A stretch of 33,170 bases of DNA from Deltaproteobacteria bacterium (GCA_016219115.1 JACRCH010000111.1:1-33170), one strand, 5' to 3'; shown: positions 4,432-8,706, numbered from the stretch's first letter. Notes: generated by a model not told the origin, from the sequence alone. Numbers and translations are program-made.

Positions 4432-4818
4432 TTTACACCGCCTCCTTCGAATATTATTGTTTTTTGCGAGATCATCAAAAGATGTTTAAACCGCTCCCCC
4501 ATGCCTTAGATTGTATCGTCTGCCGGCGTACTGTCAAATCCGCCGGTCAAAGACCCCGTAAAAGACCGTGAGCGCCCGCCGGGCGCGTTTTGATTCGTTC
4601 CTCCTTTTTCTAATCTTTTTTTAATCTTTTATCTTCTATAATATATAATAGTTATGTGCGGTTAAGACCGACCGTTTTGCCCTGCAAAGAAGCGTCCGGG
4701 ACAACGGGCTCCGGGGGCGCGTAAGAGGACAAAGCGTGTTGACTAACGCCGTTGAAGATGTTAAAAAAATTAAGAGAGTTCCTGCCCGTGGCTATCTCAA
4801 ACAAAAAAGGAAGAGAAT
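4432..4818. other. Divergent intergenic region with two-component promoter
   Basis: 387 bp separate the NTF2-like gene (-) from cytochrome b561 (+). It holds the 11-bp-spaced TAATCT box with TATAAT (4611-4642) and, downstream of it, a leader of about 170 nt. Within the leader is a possible 24-codon ORF (4758-4832) that overlaps the b561 start but lacks a Shine-Dalgarno. No repeat or RNA gene was recognised here. Confidence 0.6.
4611..4642 (+). promoter_or_regulatory. OmpR/PhoB-type direct-repeat box fused to a -10 element, upstream of the b561/two-component operon
   Basis: TAATCT at 4611-4616 is repeated at 4622-4627 (11-bp period). TATAAT follows at 4637-4642, 15 bp from the start of the second repeat. 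No TTGACA-like -35 is present at the normal distance. OmpR-family regulators bind 11-bp-spaced direct repeats, and Pho-box-type activators sit about this far from the -10. The same architecture recurs at 7872-7903. Binding by the regulator encoded at 5570 is inferred. Confidence 0.65.
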
Positions 4819-5490
4819 ATGGAACCCAATAACGAAAGAGTGAGAGTGATAGTGGACGTATGGGATTGGCCTATCAGGGTGCTTCACTGGGTAAACATGT
4901 CTTTGATCTTCACTCTGGCGCTCCTTGTGCTCGGGAACCTGGGCATGGAGTATCTTGGTGTGGGCGAGGATACGAGGGACCAGGTGGCAAAGCTCCACGC
5001 CACGGTCGGGTATGTGTTCATCGGTACTTTTTCATTAAGGCTGCTCTGGGGGTTCGTGGGCAACAAGTACGCCTCCTGGCGCGATATAATACCCTGCAAG
5101 AAAGAGCAGCGTGAAGCCATAGCGCACAACATAAAGTGGTATTTGAGCGGTTTCAGGGGCAAGGCGGCAAAGGTCGTCGGACACGACCCGCTGGCTTCCA
5201 TCTTCTACATGGCCCTTTTCATAGTGCTCTTAAGCCAGGCCGCAACCGGCCTTCTCCTCTCCGGCACCGAGTTTAAGATGTTCCCTGGTACGCTTTTCGT
5301 GGGCTCCTTGAGCGAATCCGCCTCAGAGACCATCGCCAAATCGCTCAAGGAGGTACACGAGTTAGGCTTCTGGTTCATAGTCTTTTTCATATGCGCCCAT
5401 CTCGGCGGCCTTGTCGTCCATGAGGTAAAGGAGAAGACCGGGCTCTTTTCATCGATGATACACGGCAAAAAATACCTGCCCAGAGAGTAG
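4819..5490 (+). CDS. Cytochrome b561-domain membrane protein
   Basis: The 223-residue product has four hydrophobic helices and the His pattern of bacterial b561/hydrogenase-type cytochromes b: RVLHWVN (H23), AKLHATVGY, and EVHELGFW plus CAHLGGLVVHE in the last helix region. These would ligate two b haems in the cytoplasmic membrane, passing electrons between quinones and a periplasmic or membrane partner. Shine-Dalgarno AAAGGAAGAG precedes the ATG. The gene leads an apparent operon with the regulator (79 bp downstream) and kinase genes, so it is probably both a target and a neighbour of that two-component system. No hydrogenase or dihaem cytochrome gene adjoins it, so its partner is unknown. 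Confidence 0.87.
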   Translation: MEPNNERVRVIVDVWDWPIRVLHWVNMSLIFTLALLVLGNLGMEYLGVGEDTRDQVAKLHATVGYVFIGTFSLRLLWGFVGNKYASWRDIIPCKKEQREAIAHNIKWYLSGFRGKAAKVVGHDPLASIFYMALFIVLLSQAATGLLLSGTEFKMFPGTLFVGSLSESASETIAKSLKEVHELGFWFIVFFICAHLGGLVVHEVKEKTGLFSSMIHGKKYLPRE

Positions 5491-5569
5491 CCTACGCTGA
5501 AAAACGGATTCCCGAGTAAAGGCCACCCATATCCCTTTCAGGGATTTGCAGTTCCAAAAGGACAAAGAG

Positions 5570-6241
5570 ATGAGAATACTCCTTGTTGAAGACGAAAAAG
5601 ACCTCGCGATGATAATCAAGCAGGGGCTTGAAGAGGAAGGCTATGTCGTGGACGTGGCGCACGACGGGGAGGAGGGCCTTTACATGGCCGAGAACTTCCC
5701 GGCGGACGCCGTCATCCTCGATATCATGCTGCCTCTTCTGGACGGGCTTTCCGTCCTGAGCGCGTTAAGGAAAAAGGGCAACATGACCCCGGTGATACTC
5801 CTGACGGCCAGGGACGCGCTTCTGGACAAGATAAAGGGCCTTGATACGGGGGCTGACGACTATCTGACCAAGCCCTTCGTCTTCGAGGAGCTCCTGGCCA
5901 GGGTCAGGTCGCTTTTAAGGAGAAAGGCTACCGTTAAGGAGGCCGTCATACGGATAGGCGACCTTGAGATCAACACCGCGAGCCACGAGGTCAAGCGCGG
6001 CGGCAAGGCGATAGCGCTCTCGGCCCGCGAGTACGCGCTCCTTGAGTACCTCGCCTACAGGAAGGACAATGTGGTGACGCGCAGCGAGATAGTCGAGCAC
6101 ATATACAGCGAGGAAACCGACATGGACTCCAATGTCGTCGACGTATACATCAATTATCTGCGCAACAAGGTCGACAAGGACTTCAAGAAAAAGCTCATCC
6201 ACACGGTCCGCGGCGCGGGCTACATGCTCAAGGAAGAGTAA
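5570..6241 (+). CDS. OmpR/PhoB-family response regulator
   Basis: A receiver domain (RILLVEDEKD acidic pocket; phosphoacceptor D51 in VILDIMLP; conserved Lys in DYLTKPF) is followed by a winged-helix DNA-binding domain (SAREYALLEYLA, IYSEETDMDSNVVDVYINYLRNK cut here to its flanks, and HTVRGAGYML). The track start at 5546 is a TTG eight codons upstream. ATG 5570 is preferred because AAAGGA lies 7 bp before it and MRILLVEDE is the family's normal N-terminus, giving 223 residues. The partner kinase starts 8 bp downstream. Regulators of this type bind 11-bp direct repeats, and such a box lies upstream of this operon and again before the HAD gene, suggesting autoregulation. Confidence 0.95.
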   Translation: MRILLVEDEKDLAMIIKQGLEEEGYVVDVAHDGEEGLYMAENFPADAVILDIMLPLLDGLSVLSALRKKGNMTPVILLTARDALLDKIKGLDTGADDYLTKPFVFEELLARVRSLLRRKATVKEAVIRIGDLEINTASHEVKRGGKAIALSAREYALLEYLAYRKDNVVTRSEIVEHIYSEETDMDSNVVDVYINYLRNKVDKDFKKKLIHTVRGAGYMLKEE

Positions 6242-6249
6242 CCCCCATT

Positions 6250-7671
6250 ATGTTCAACTCCATTAAATTAAAGCTCGTCATACTCTTCCTCGTAGTCTTC
6301 TCGTTCTTCTTCACGGGCCTCGAGATATTCCTTTACTACAAGCTCGAAGACCTCGTCATACACCTGGCCGACGAGCACCTGACAAGCGAGCTTGAGACGG
6401 TGTCGAACCTCATGACCGTGGAGGAGGCGCACGGGCAGCTCGATACAGAGCTCGCGGAGCTTTCGAGCGCGGTCACGGGCATGTACGCCGCTAAGCTCTC
6501 GGGCCATTACTACCAGATAGTCTCCGTGGACGGCCATGTGCTTGTAAGGTCCCCGTCGCTTGCCAGGGCTGACGCGACGATGCCTGTCATACAGCCCGAA
6601 GGCTCGGCCCAGGACTTCAGGTCCGTAACCGGCCCCAACGGGGTCCCGATGCGCATGATAAGCCGGACCTTCAACTTCTCCGTCGGCAGGCTTACCTTCC
6701 AGGCCGGGGACTCGCTCGAGGACACCTATGAGCTCTTAAGCTCGTTCAGGAACATCGTGCTGGCGATCTTTCCGGCGGTCTTCATCATCTGCGGCATAGG
6801 CGTTTTCGTCATGACCGGGTTCGCGTTGAGGTCGCTTAAGACATTCTCGGCCAAGGTCGGCCAGATCACCGAGGAGAACCTGAGCGAGAGGATCGAGGAG
6901 AGGGGCGCCCCGGCGGAACTCAAACCGCTGGCCACGAGCTTCAACACGATGCTCGGGCGCCTCGAGGAGTCGTTTGCCAAACAGAAGCAGTTCTTATCGG
7001 ACGCGTCCCACGAACTGCGTACCCCGACCTCCATCATAAAGAGCTTCTGCGACGTTACGCTTTCCAGGGACAGGCAGTCCGCCGACTACAGGGAGTCGAT
7101 AAAAAAGATAGGCGACACCGTCAACAGGATGTGCGACATCATCAACCGCATCCTCGTGATATCGAGGATGGACACCAAGACCATACTCTTCAAGCCCGTG
7201 AGGATGGACCTCCGTGACATAATGAGGGACGTATTGAAGCTCATCGAGCCTTCCGCCGTCAACAAGGGGGTCGTCATAAAGCTTAACGGCCCTTCGGTGA
7301 CGGTAAAGGGAGACCGCGAGGGGCTTACCGAGGTATTCACCAATATCGTCGAGAACGCGATAAAGTACAACAGGCCCCAGGGCAAGGTAGATATCGATAT
7401 CTCCGAGAGCCAGGGCGGGGCCGTCGTGGTGGTGGAAGACACCGGGATCGGCATACCGGAGGGAGAGACCGAAAAGATATTCGACCGGTTCTACCGCGTG
7501 GACGCCAGCCGCGGCGTTACCGTCGGAAGCGGTCTGGGGCTCTCGATAGTCCGGACTATAGTCGAGGCCCACGGCGGGCGGGTGGAGGTAAAAAGCGAGG
7601 TCGGCAAAGGCACCACCTTCACCGTGTATATCCCTGTGAACCCGGAGTTTAAAAACGGGCCGAAAGCATAG
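6250..7671 (+). CDS. HAMP-domain sensor histidine kinase
   Basis: The 473-residue kinase has two membrane helices (about 7-28 and 168-192) around a periplasmic sensor of roughly 135 residues with no recognised motif. A HAMP domain follows, then the H box SDASHELRTP (H254) and the ATPase domain with an N box (NIVENAIKYN), G1 DTGIGIP, F box FDRFYR and G2 GSGLGLS. The signal is not identifiable from sequence. Co-transcription with cytochrome b561 hints at a redox or envelope cue, which is inference. The gene ends just before a strong 14-bp perfect hairpin. Confidence 0.95.
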   Translation: MFNSIKLKLVILFLVVFSFFFTGLEIFLYYKLEDLVIHLADEHLTSELETVSNLMTVEEAHGQLDTELAELSSAVTGMYAAKLSGHYYQIVSVDGHVLVRSPSLARADATMPVIQPEGSAQDFRSVTGPNGVPMRMISRTFNFSVGRLTFQAGDSLEDTYELLSSFRNIVLAIFPAVFIICGIGVFVMTGFALRSLKTFSAKVGQITEENLSERIEERGAPAELKPLATSFNTMLGRLEESFAKQKQFLSDASHELRTPTSIIKSFCDVTLSRDRQSADYRESIKKIGDTVNRMCDIINRILVISRMDTKTILFKPVRMDLRDIMRDVLKLIEPSAVNKGVVIKLNGPSVTVKGDREGLTEVFTNIVENAIKYNRPQGKVDIDISESQGGAVVVVEDTGIGIPEGETEKIFDRFYRVDASRGVTVGSGLGLSIVRTIVEAHGGRVEVKSEVGKGTTFTVYIPVNPEFKNGPKA

Positions 7672-7704
7672 TCTGTCTCTGAAAAACCATCCGCAGATCG
7701 ATTG

Positions 7705-7745
7705 ACCGGGCCGGCGCGGGTCTCCTCGCGCCGGCCCGGTCTCGT
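7705..7745 (+). terminator. Hairpin terminator-like structure after the two-component operon
   Basis: ACCGGGCCGGCGCG (7705-7718) and CGCGCCGGCCCGGT (7727-7740) form a perfect 14-bp stem with an 8-nt loop. Only a weak T stretch (CTCGTTT) follows, so termination could be incomplete. Confidence 0.65.
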
Positions 7746-7871
7746 TTGACGGCAAACAGCCGGATATCCGCGAGTAACTCCCCTGAGAACCGCGTAAAAA
7801 ATGCCCCGCAGCATTAGCCTCCGCAAGATAAATATCCTTTAAAATCAAGGCTTCCGTCAGGGAGGCGTTCT

Positions 7872-7903
7872 TAATCTTCTTCTAATCTCACCTTTTGTAT
7901 AAT
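7872..7903 (+). promoter_or_regulatory. Second OmpR/PhoB-type box fused to a -10 element, upstream of the HAD-like gene
   Basis: TAATCT at 7872-7877, TAATCT at 7883-7888 (11-bp period) and TATAAT at 7898-7903 (15 bp from the second repeat) reproduce the spacing at 4611-4642 exactly, although the bases between the repeats differ. It lies 39 bp before the ATG at 7942. The downstream gene is therefore probably in the same regulon as the b561/two-component operon. Confidence 0.65.
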
Positions 7904-7941: not shown

Positions 7942-8307
7942 ATGCGTATAATGTTTGATCTGATGGGTACTGTCTTCGGCGCGATCGACATGTCTCTGAG
8001 GCCGGGGATAAAGGAGACGATAAAAGCCCTGAGGGAAAACGGGTGTCAGGTGGGTTTCTGGACGAGCGGCCCGGTCGAGCAATACAGGGCCGTGTTAAAT
8101 GGGGCCGGTATCACCGGGGAAGTATACAGGAAAGGGGTTCATCTGCCGTTCGTTCCCGACATTTGCGTTGACGACAGCCCCGAGGAGTGGATGCCGGGAG
8201 AGCTCTTCGCCGTAAAACCCCATATCTCGGATGTAATGCCCGGAGTCTCCATACTTGTCGCTGAGCTGATGGGCTTCAACGAGAAGCGGAACTTTTTCCG
8301 GGATTGA
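7942..8307 (+). CDS. Small HAD-superfamily-like protein
   Basis: The 121-residue product has a compact HAD core. MIFD-type motif I is MFDLMGTV, with the nucleophile Asp present but the usual second Asp replaced by Met. Motif II is FWTSGP, a Lys lies in YRKG, and motif IV is CVDDSPEEW. HAD enzymes are mostly phosphatases; here substrate and even activity are uncertain because the general-acid Asp is absent and no cap domain is present. It follows the kinase gene but is separated from it by a hairpin and has its own promoter with the TAATCT repeat box. A GGGGTG lies upstream of the ATG. Confidence 0.7.
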   Translation: MRIMFDLMGTVFGAIDMSLRPGIKETIKALRENGCQVGFWTSGPVEQYRAVLNGAGITGEVYRKGVHLPFVPDICVDDSPEEWMPGELFAVKPHISDVMPGVSILVAELMGFNEKRNFFRD

Positions 8308-8484: not shown

Positions 8485-8706
8485 ATGAAGAGCAGGGGTG
8501 TAGTCGTAATCGACCTGATGGGAGAAGCGGACGAGTTGGAAAAGGGTGAGATCAAAAGAGAGGACCACGCATGCAGGTGCGAAGTCTGTCACTGCGACAA
8601 CGGGGTCCCGAAGGGCTACGAGGGAAGGGCCGTAAAGTATGACGAATCGCTCATACTCCTTCCGCAGGCCTATGTCGAGCTCCGGGGCAGGTGGAACTCC
8701 AGGTAA
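8485..8706 (+). CDS. Small Cys-rich hypothetical protein
   Basis: The 73-residue product is not recognised. The track start at 8461 lacks a ribosome-binding site. ATG 8485 has a near-perfect AGGAGGT 6 bp upstream and is chosen. Midway it carries a dense cluster, HACRCEVCHCDNG (CxCxxCxC with flanking His), suggesting a metal-binding site. CEVCH formally matches a haem-c motif, but no signal peptide exists, so haem attachment is unlikely. The N-terminus (VVVIDLMGE) is hydrophobic and strand-like. It ends 24 bp before the stop of the opposing PD-(D/E)XK-like gene. Confidence 0.6.
   Translation: MKSRGVVVIDLMGEADELEKGEIKREDHACRCEVCHCDNGVPKGYEGRAVKYDESLILLPQAYVELRGRWNSR

Follow-up and report, generated by a model that had tools for sequence, protein, structure and literature searches.

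Two matching direct-repeat promoters of an uncultured groundwater bacterium and the probable two-component regulon behind them

Do two promoters of identical build, one in front of an operon for a b561 cytochrome, a response regulator and a histidine kinase, the other in front of a gene for a small HAD-like protein, answer to one regulator, and what else does that regulator control? The question arises from a 33,170-nucleotide stretch of one contig (the window; GCA_016219115.1, JACRCH010000111.1:1-33170) of a genome labelled Deltaproteobacteria bacterium (G000; 2.30 Mb, 143 contigs, 89% complete). Its bearer is an uncultured groundwater bacterium, and its named relatives are chiefly metagenome-assembled genomes (MAGs) from groundwater and sediment labelled Deltaproteobacteria. 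Both matching promoters are real and conserved, and their reading as a two-component regulon is well supported. With good confidence, although binding itself is deduced from sequence, we propose that an autoregulated class II activator of the OmpR/PhoB family acts at both sites and drives a regulon for periplasmic electron transfer. The box, its spacing, its conservation, its target sets and its co-occurrence with the regulator were established computationally; whole genomes were scanned with patterns and with a sequence-only model, the reversed pattern serving as the control.

An earlier note on this DNA had claimed two promoters of identical TAATCT-11-TAATCT-15-TATAAT geometry, and the match is exact: the half-sites start at 4611 and 4622 with TATAAT at 4637, and at 7872 and 7883 with TATAAT at 7898, and neither 32-mer (4611-4642 and 7872-7903) has a single mismatch to TAATCT-N5-TAATCT-N9-TATAAT. 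The bases between the repeats differ, as had been stated, though both spacers are rich in pyrimidines (TTTTT and TCTTC). In shuffled windows, the full pattern with ≤3 mismatches had a mean of 0.02 matches and never two. The half-site pair alone is not rare at 2 mismatches (1.6 expected per window), and what carries the signal is therefore the exact pair together with its distance from the −10 hexamer. Within the whole 2.30-Mb genome, the exact half-site pair occurs at these two places only, and the full pattern with ≤3 mismatches occurs six times, compared to none for the reversed control.

The spacing was counted in a motif-blind set, 1.06 Mb on both strands retrieved by protein homology alone. 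TAATC-N(k)-TAATC, with k running from 0 to 25, was found 36 times at k = 6 and 0 to 6 times at each other k. The −10-like hexamer kept the standard offset in 31 cases and was one base closer in 9, with 0 to 2 cases at any other offset; in this set, the −10 thus lies 9 or 8 nt beyond the box. The operator geometry is therefore strict, with an 11-bp period. Across relatives, YTTTAATCT fits the half-site better, its final T being the weakest base. Given the TATAAT hexamers at 4637 and 7898, it is the first half-site that fills the −35 position, in line with the earlier idea that the box replaces this element. Indeed, no −35 hexamer is found at either promoter, and for this reason a sigma-70 scan called no promoter at 4611-4642 or 7872-7903. 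A direct-repeat operator with a period of about 11 bp that takes the place of the −35 at a fixed distance from a sigma-70 −10 is the layout of class II activation, and both promoters have it.

The promoter geometry had been noticed by eye in the window alone, and comparative genomics could confirm it in this uncultured lineage. Orthologs of the regulator (70-93% identity) are present throughout the family, order and class, and the box with its −10 was found upstream of the b561-regulator-kinase genes, or directly upstream of the regulator if b561 is missing, at 33 of 36 ortholog loci. A site was counted if it had at most 4 mismatches or a matrix score of roughly ≥20. Since many of those sites had served to train the matrix, the count is not independent on its own; the exact-pattern counts at the ortholog loci are independent of the matrix. 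Family f4 and some others have extra sequence, probably a further gene, between the box and b561, and loci of homologs with ≤57% identity mostly lack the box. The HAD gene is present in 11 of 59 genomes, all of family f1, and adjoins the kinase gene; each of the 11 has the box before it, the weakest being that of G008, in which a stop interrupts the HAD frame. The repeats are thus retained at orthologous promoters of both kinds.

Two loci under other phylum names also carry regulator and box. A MAG titled Nitrospirae has an 81%-identical regulator with the box directly upstream (L107), which is either a transfer or a mislabelled bin. A Nitrospinota MAG (L111 1208) has a 74%-identical regulator, with a box upstream of the regulator on the opposite strand.

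The earlier note had taken the b561 operon and the HAD gene as the regulon. Both are boxed, but the pairing is just a small part of a larger regulon, and the HAD gene is a lineage-restricted target. In 30 family genomes, the 17-position pattern with ≤2 mismatches gave 100 sites, compared to 4 for the reversed control (summed counts), and it recurs upstream of the same gene sets and not at random positions. One recurrent target is an operon for a cytochrome b/diheme-c chimera (CytB/mDHC), DUF1924 (SHP) and DHC; another, identified by Pfam, encodes a thioredoxin-like protein, DUF4266, DUF3570 and ApbE. Both operons were traced by protein homology, and a box score of ≥19 was reached before 13 of 16 SHP operons and all 14 DUF4266 operons and in none of 60 dinucleotide shuffles; promoters of both operons had been left out of matrix training, although a few of these loci had prompted the search. 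Contig C23 of G000 carries the DUF4266 operon and a probable SHP operon, with boxes that score 25.6 and 25.2. Its CytB/mDHC (58% identity) and DHC were recognized as orthologs by homology, and the gene between them is the candidate DUF1924 gene; in the SHP operon of G010, all three were found by Pfam.

Further boxes stand before a kinase/NtrC-type regulator pair (G000 C53, G001, G002, G012 and G026), which suggests a regulatory cascade, before a CcdA/DsbD-like gene (G010 and G028), and, in several genera, in the region of a DEAD-box RNA helicase gene. On G000 C133 (L079 3716-8434), a PepSY-ABC-regulator-kinase operon that adjoins an AcrB-type efflux gene follows a box with 1 mismatch, and this box has a near-identical counterpart at G057 C123:3011. 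At the order and class level, the genome scan gave fewer sites and reversed-control matches were commoner than in the family; we therefore claim the wider regulon for the family only. A pattern scan of viral contigs was uninformative (34 dispersed matches in 2.9 million contigs).

Some of these sites have features of their own. On C53, two tandem boxes (L080 5312 and 5632) lie upstream of a 754-aa kinase and the NtrC-type regulator. The boxes of the helicase region, often two, lie several hundred bases before the gene (L358, L359, L241 and L225). The second-ranked model match in G000 is on C77 (L081 9718), where a c-type cytochrome-containing gene ends upstream; the box is about 330 bp from the contig end, and therefore its target is out of view.

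In the mechanism that we propose, the kinase would phosphorylate the regulator, which would then dimerize, and its two winged helices would each occupy one YTTTAATCT half-site, in head-to-tail order and, given the 11-bp period, on the same DNA face, at the place of the −35. The bound regulator would recruit sigma-70 polymerase to the fixed TATAAT. At the first site, the b561-regulator-kinase operon would activate itself; at the second, the HAD gene would be driven as a separate transcript. Boxes elsewhere in the genome and in the family would drive the SHP operon and the flavinylation operon of thioredoxin, DUF4266, DUF3570 and ApbE, and in addition the CcdA/DsbD-like gene of some genera and the second kinase/NtrC-type pair. 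Binding, dependence on phosphorylation, and activation rather than repression are predicted from knowledge of the family, PmrA and BqsR. Judged by the targets, the signal would be redox or metal stress of the envelope. Elsewhere, SHP operons often include a sensor kinase/regulator pair (PMC2909971), and DUF3570, DUF4266, thioredoxin and ApbE form a described extracytosolic flavinylation system that often occurs with DsbD (PMC8238504); therefore, redox control of both sets is plausible. We lean slightly toward the view that one b561-carrying two-component system answers to a redox or metal signal in the envelope by co-ordinating the oxygen-binding SHP chain and DUF3570/DUF4266 flavinylation, with the DxMGT HAD protein as a lineage-specific addition.

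Which regulator reads the box? The adjacent one, proposed as the controller from the start, is the likely candidate, with genus-level co-occurrence on its side. In genus g5, five genomes (G005, G014, G021, G024 and G027) are devoid of the regulator ortholog and gave no model match at E ≤0.5, and G029 has the ortholog and five matches. Since the site-less genomes keep the orphan, C42-type regulator, the b561-linked regulator is favored and the orphan disfavored. Several observations weigh against this assignment or against the proposed regulon. The box was not seen at three of the 36 ortholog loci (G044, G057 and G049, the last on a short contig). Genus g5 has in addition lost both the SHP and the DUF4266 operon, and therefore the absence of sites may reflect loss of targets as well as loss of the regulator. 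G007 has no ortholog, yet two model matches; G010 has no regulator, yet seven sites, those of its SHP and DUF4266 operons among them. However, G010 is also devoid of the AKR gene, normally the neighbor of the regulator, which makes an assembly gap or a recent loss of the block plausible.

It is also conceivable that paralogous regulators, the orphan on C42 (56% identical) and that of C133 (63% identical), bind the box mainly or jointly, as a cross-talking group. This is a real alternative, because the three regulators have near-identical recognition helices, DSNVVDVYINYLRNK in the adjacent regulator compared to ETNVVDVYINHLRIK (C42) and DSNVIDVFINRIRNK (C133), and it is what keeps the adjacent regulator at likely rather than proven. 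The two-component operon on C133 has its own box, with the close counterpart in G057, the sites of G010 persist without the adjacent regulator, and in Escherichia coli, CusR and HprR use one common box (PMC9302797). However, the C42-type regulator is present in the g5 genomes with zero sites, and no box was found near the orphan gene on C42 within the retrieved region; we therefore hold binding by the paralogs to be possible, but not the probable case.

Binding by the adjacent regulator leaves the sign of control to be considered. A box that overlaps the −35 position would also suit a repressor that excludes polymerase from these promoters. However, the box covers no usable −35, and hence only weak transcription is expected from these promoters in the absence of an activator; BqsR activates by way of a comparable arrangement (PMC4682146), and repression is therefore unlikely. 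Unlikely, too, is an alternative sigma factor or an unrelated DNA-binding protein, a reading that draws on the fixed place of the element in the promoter and on the fact that the protein bound to it is only predicted. The OmpR/PhoB class II pattern is just this, a direct repeat of 11-bp period followed by a −10 of the sigma-70 type, and the box is most constant, across families, at the operon of the regulator itself. That the two promoters match by chance in pyrimidine-rich DNA, for which the frequency of loosely matching half-site pairs might speak, is refuted by conservation at orthologous positions, and the shuffles, the reversed controls and the spacing peak likewise leave it next to no probability.

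As a switch, the system is of an ordinary type, with a PmrA/BqsR-like operator and a class II layout; it is the target set that is interesting. The TTTAATC repeats with their N6 peak have the head-to-tail TTAAN half-sites and the 11-bp period of such operators. PmrA (BasR) of Klebsiella and other enterobacteria, likewise of the OmpR/PhoB fold, binds CTTAAT-type repeats head to tail, with a TTAAT/CTAAG core (PMC3973317). In contrast, the half-site here reaches TTTAATCT, the specificity residues His193/His195 of PmrA align by eye with Tyr/Asn, the regulator scores 188.4 bits against a curated PmrA cut-off of 330, and its targets are redox genes and not those of lipid A modification. BqsRS/CarRS of Pseudomonas aeruginosa shares the 11-bp period and a half-site over the −35 of its own promoter: BqsR recognizes TTAAG-N6-TTAAG, and at the bqs promoter it is the downstream pentamer that overlaps the −35 (PMC4682146), whereas here the half-site is TAATC and the upstream half lies over the −35. 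The nearest protein families for regulator and kinase are CzcRS/SilRS/CopRS and HprRS/CusRS, although both proteins are under the heavy-metal cut-offs (TIGR01387/TIGR01386). HprR and CusR control periplasmic redox repair by MsrPQ, with MsrQ as the membrane partner, but the box of these two regulators, CATTACAAAATTGTAATG, is built as an inverted repeat (PMC9302797), unlike the direct repeat found here.

The targets, too, have known counterparts. The SHP operons described before have the CytB/mDHC chimera, SHP (DUF1924) and DHC in one operon and an associated two-component system (PMC2909971), whereas here kinase and regulator are encoded apart from the SHP operon, together with a b561 of their own, and have the box in common with it. 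The DUF3570/DUF4266/thioredoxin/ApbE clusters are the same gene set as here; the accessible part of that work describes clusters and flavinylation but no regulator (PMC8238504), and the common box ties the set to a two-component system. In a literature search that was thin on subscription journals, we found no published description of the box or of these genes under one switch. SHP and DUF3570/DUF4266 belong to two little-understood modules of extracytoplasmic electron transfer, and one common box leads to the testable hypothesis that they belong to the same stress or redox response. Furthermore, the box sequence can be used to look for further members of the regulon.

Table 1. Features of the two promoters and the genes around them (positions in the window)
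Feature	Position	Strand	Basis or remark
Direct-repeat box 1, TAATCT-N5-TAATCT	4611..4627	+	Exact match; in −35 position; kept before orthologous operons
−10 hexamer TATAAT, promoter 1	4637..4642	+	Fixed 9 nt past second TAATCT (4622)
Membrane cytochrome b561 (PF01292), first operon gene	4819..5490	+	Pfam E=1.3e-27
OmpR/PhoB-family response regulator, receiver and winged helix	5570..6241	+	Pfam
Membrane sensor histidine kinase, HAMP-HisKA-HATPase	6250..7671	+	Pfam
Strong GC-rich hairpin after kinase gene	7704..7741	+	−41.3 kcal/mol, z −5.8; poor T tract
Direct-repeat box 2, TAATCT-N5-TAATCT	7872..7888	+	Exact match; kept before HAD orthologs
−10 hexamer TATAAT, promoter 2	7898..7903	+	Fixed 9 nt past second TAATCT (7883)
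Small HAD-like protein	7942..8307	+	PF00702 E=5.6e-5, 24.0 bits, just under 26.4 cut-off

Closer inspection of the genes (Table 1) gave PF00072 and PF00486 (Trans_reg_C) above the cut-off in the regulator. Its best NCBIfam model is the heavy-metal regulator TIGR01387 (261.9 bits, under the 279.2 cut-off), and that of the kinase is the heavy-metal kinase TIGR01386 (277.4 bits, under the 292.55 cut-off). For the HAD-like protein, neither Pfam nor NCBIfam had a definite match. Its motif I reads DLMGT, with Met for the second Asp, and D[LV]MGT was found in three orthologs read; the T and DD motifs are retained. Judged by these motifs, its catalytic set is atypical. After the HAD gene, 8485-8706 encodes a protein of 73 aa in which cysteines cluster as CxCxxCxCD and for which there was no match in Pfam or NCBIfam. 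A candidate terminator just before box 2 (7850-7866) was set aside, its stem being short and its scan score near the shuffle background. The hairpin after the kinase gene is a possible transcript end, and since it lies between the kinase and HAD genes, these are consistent with two transcripts.

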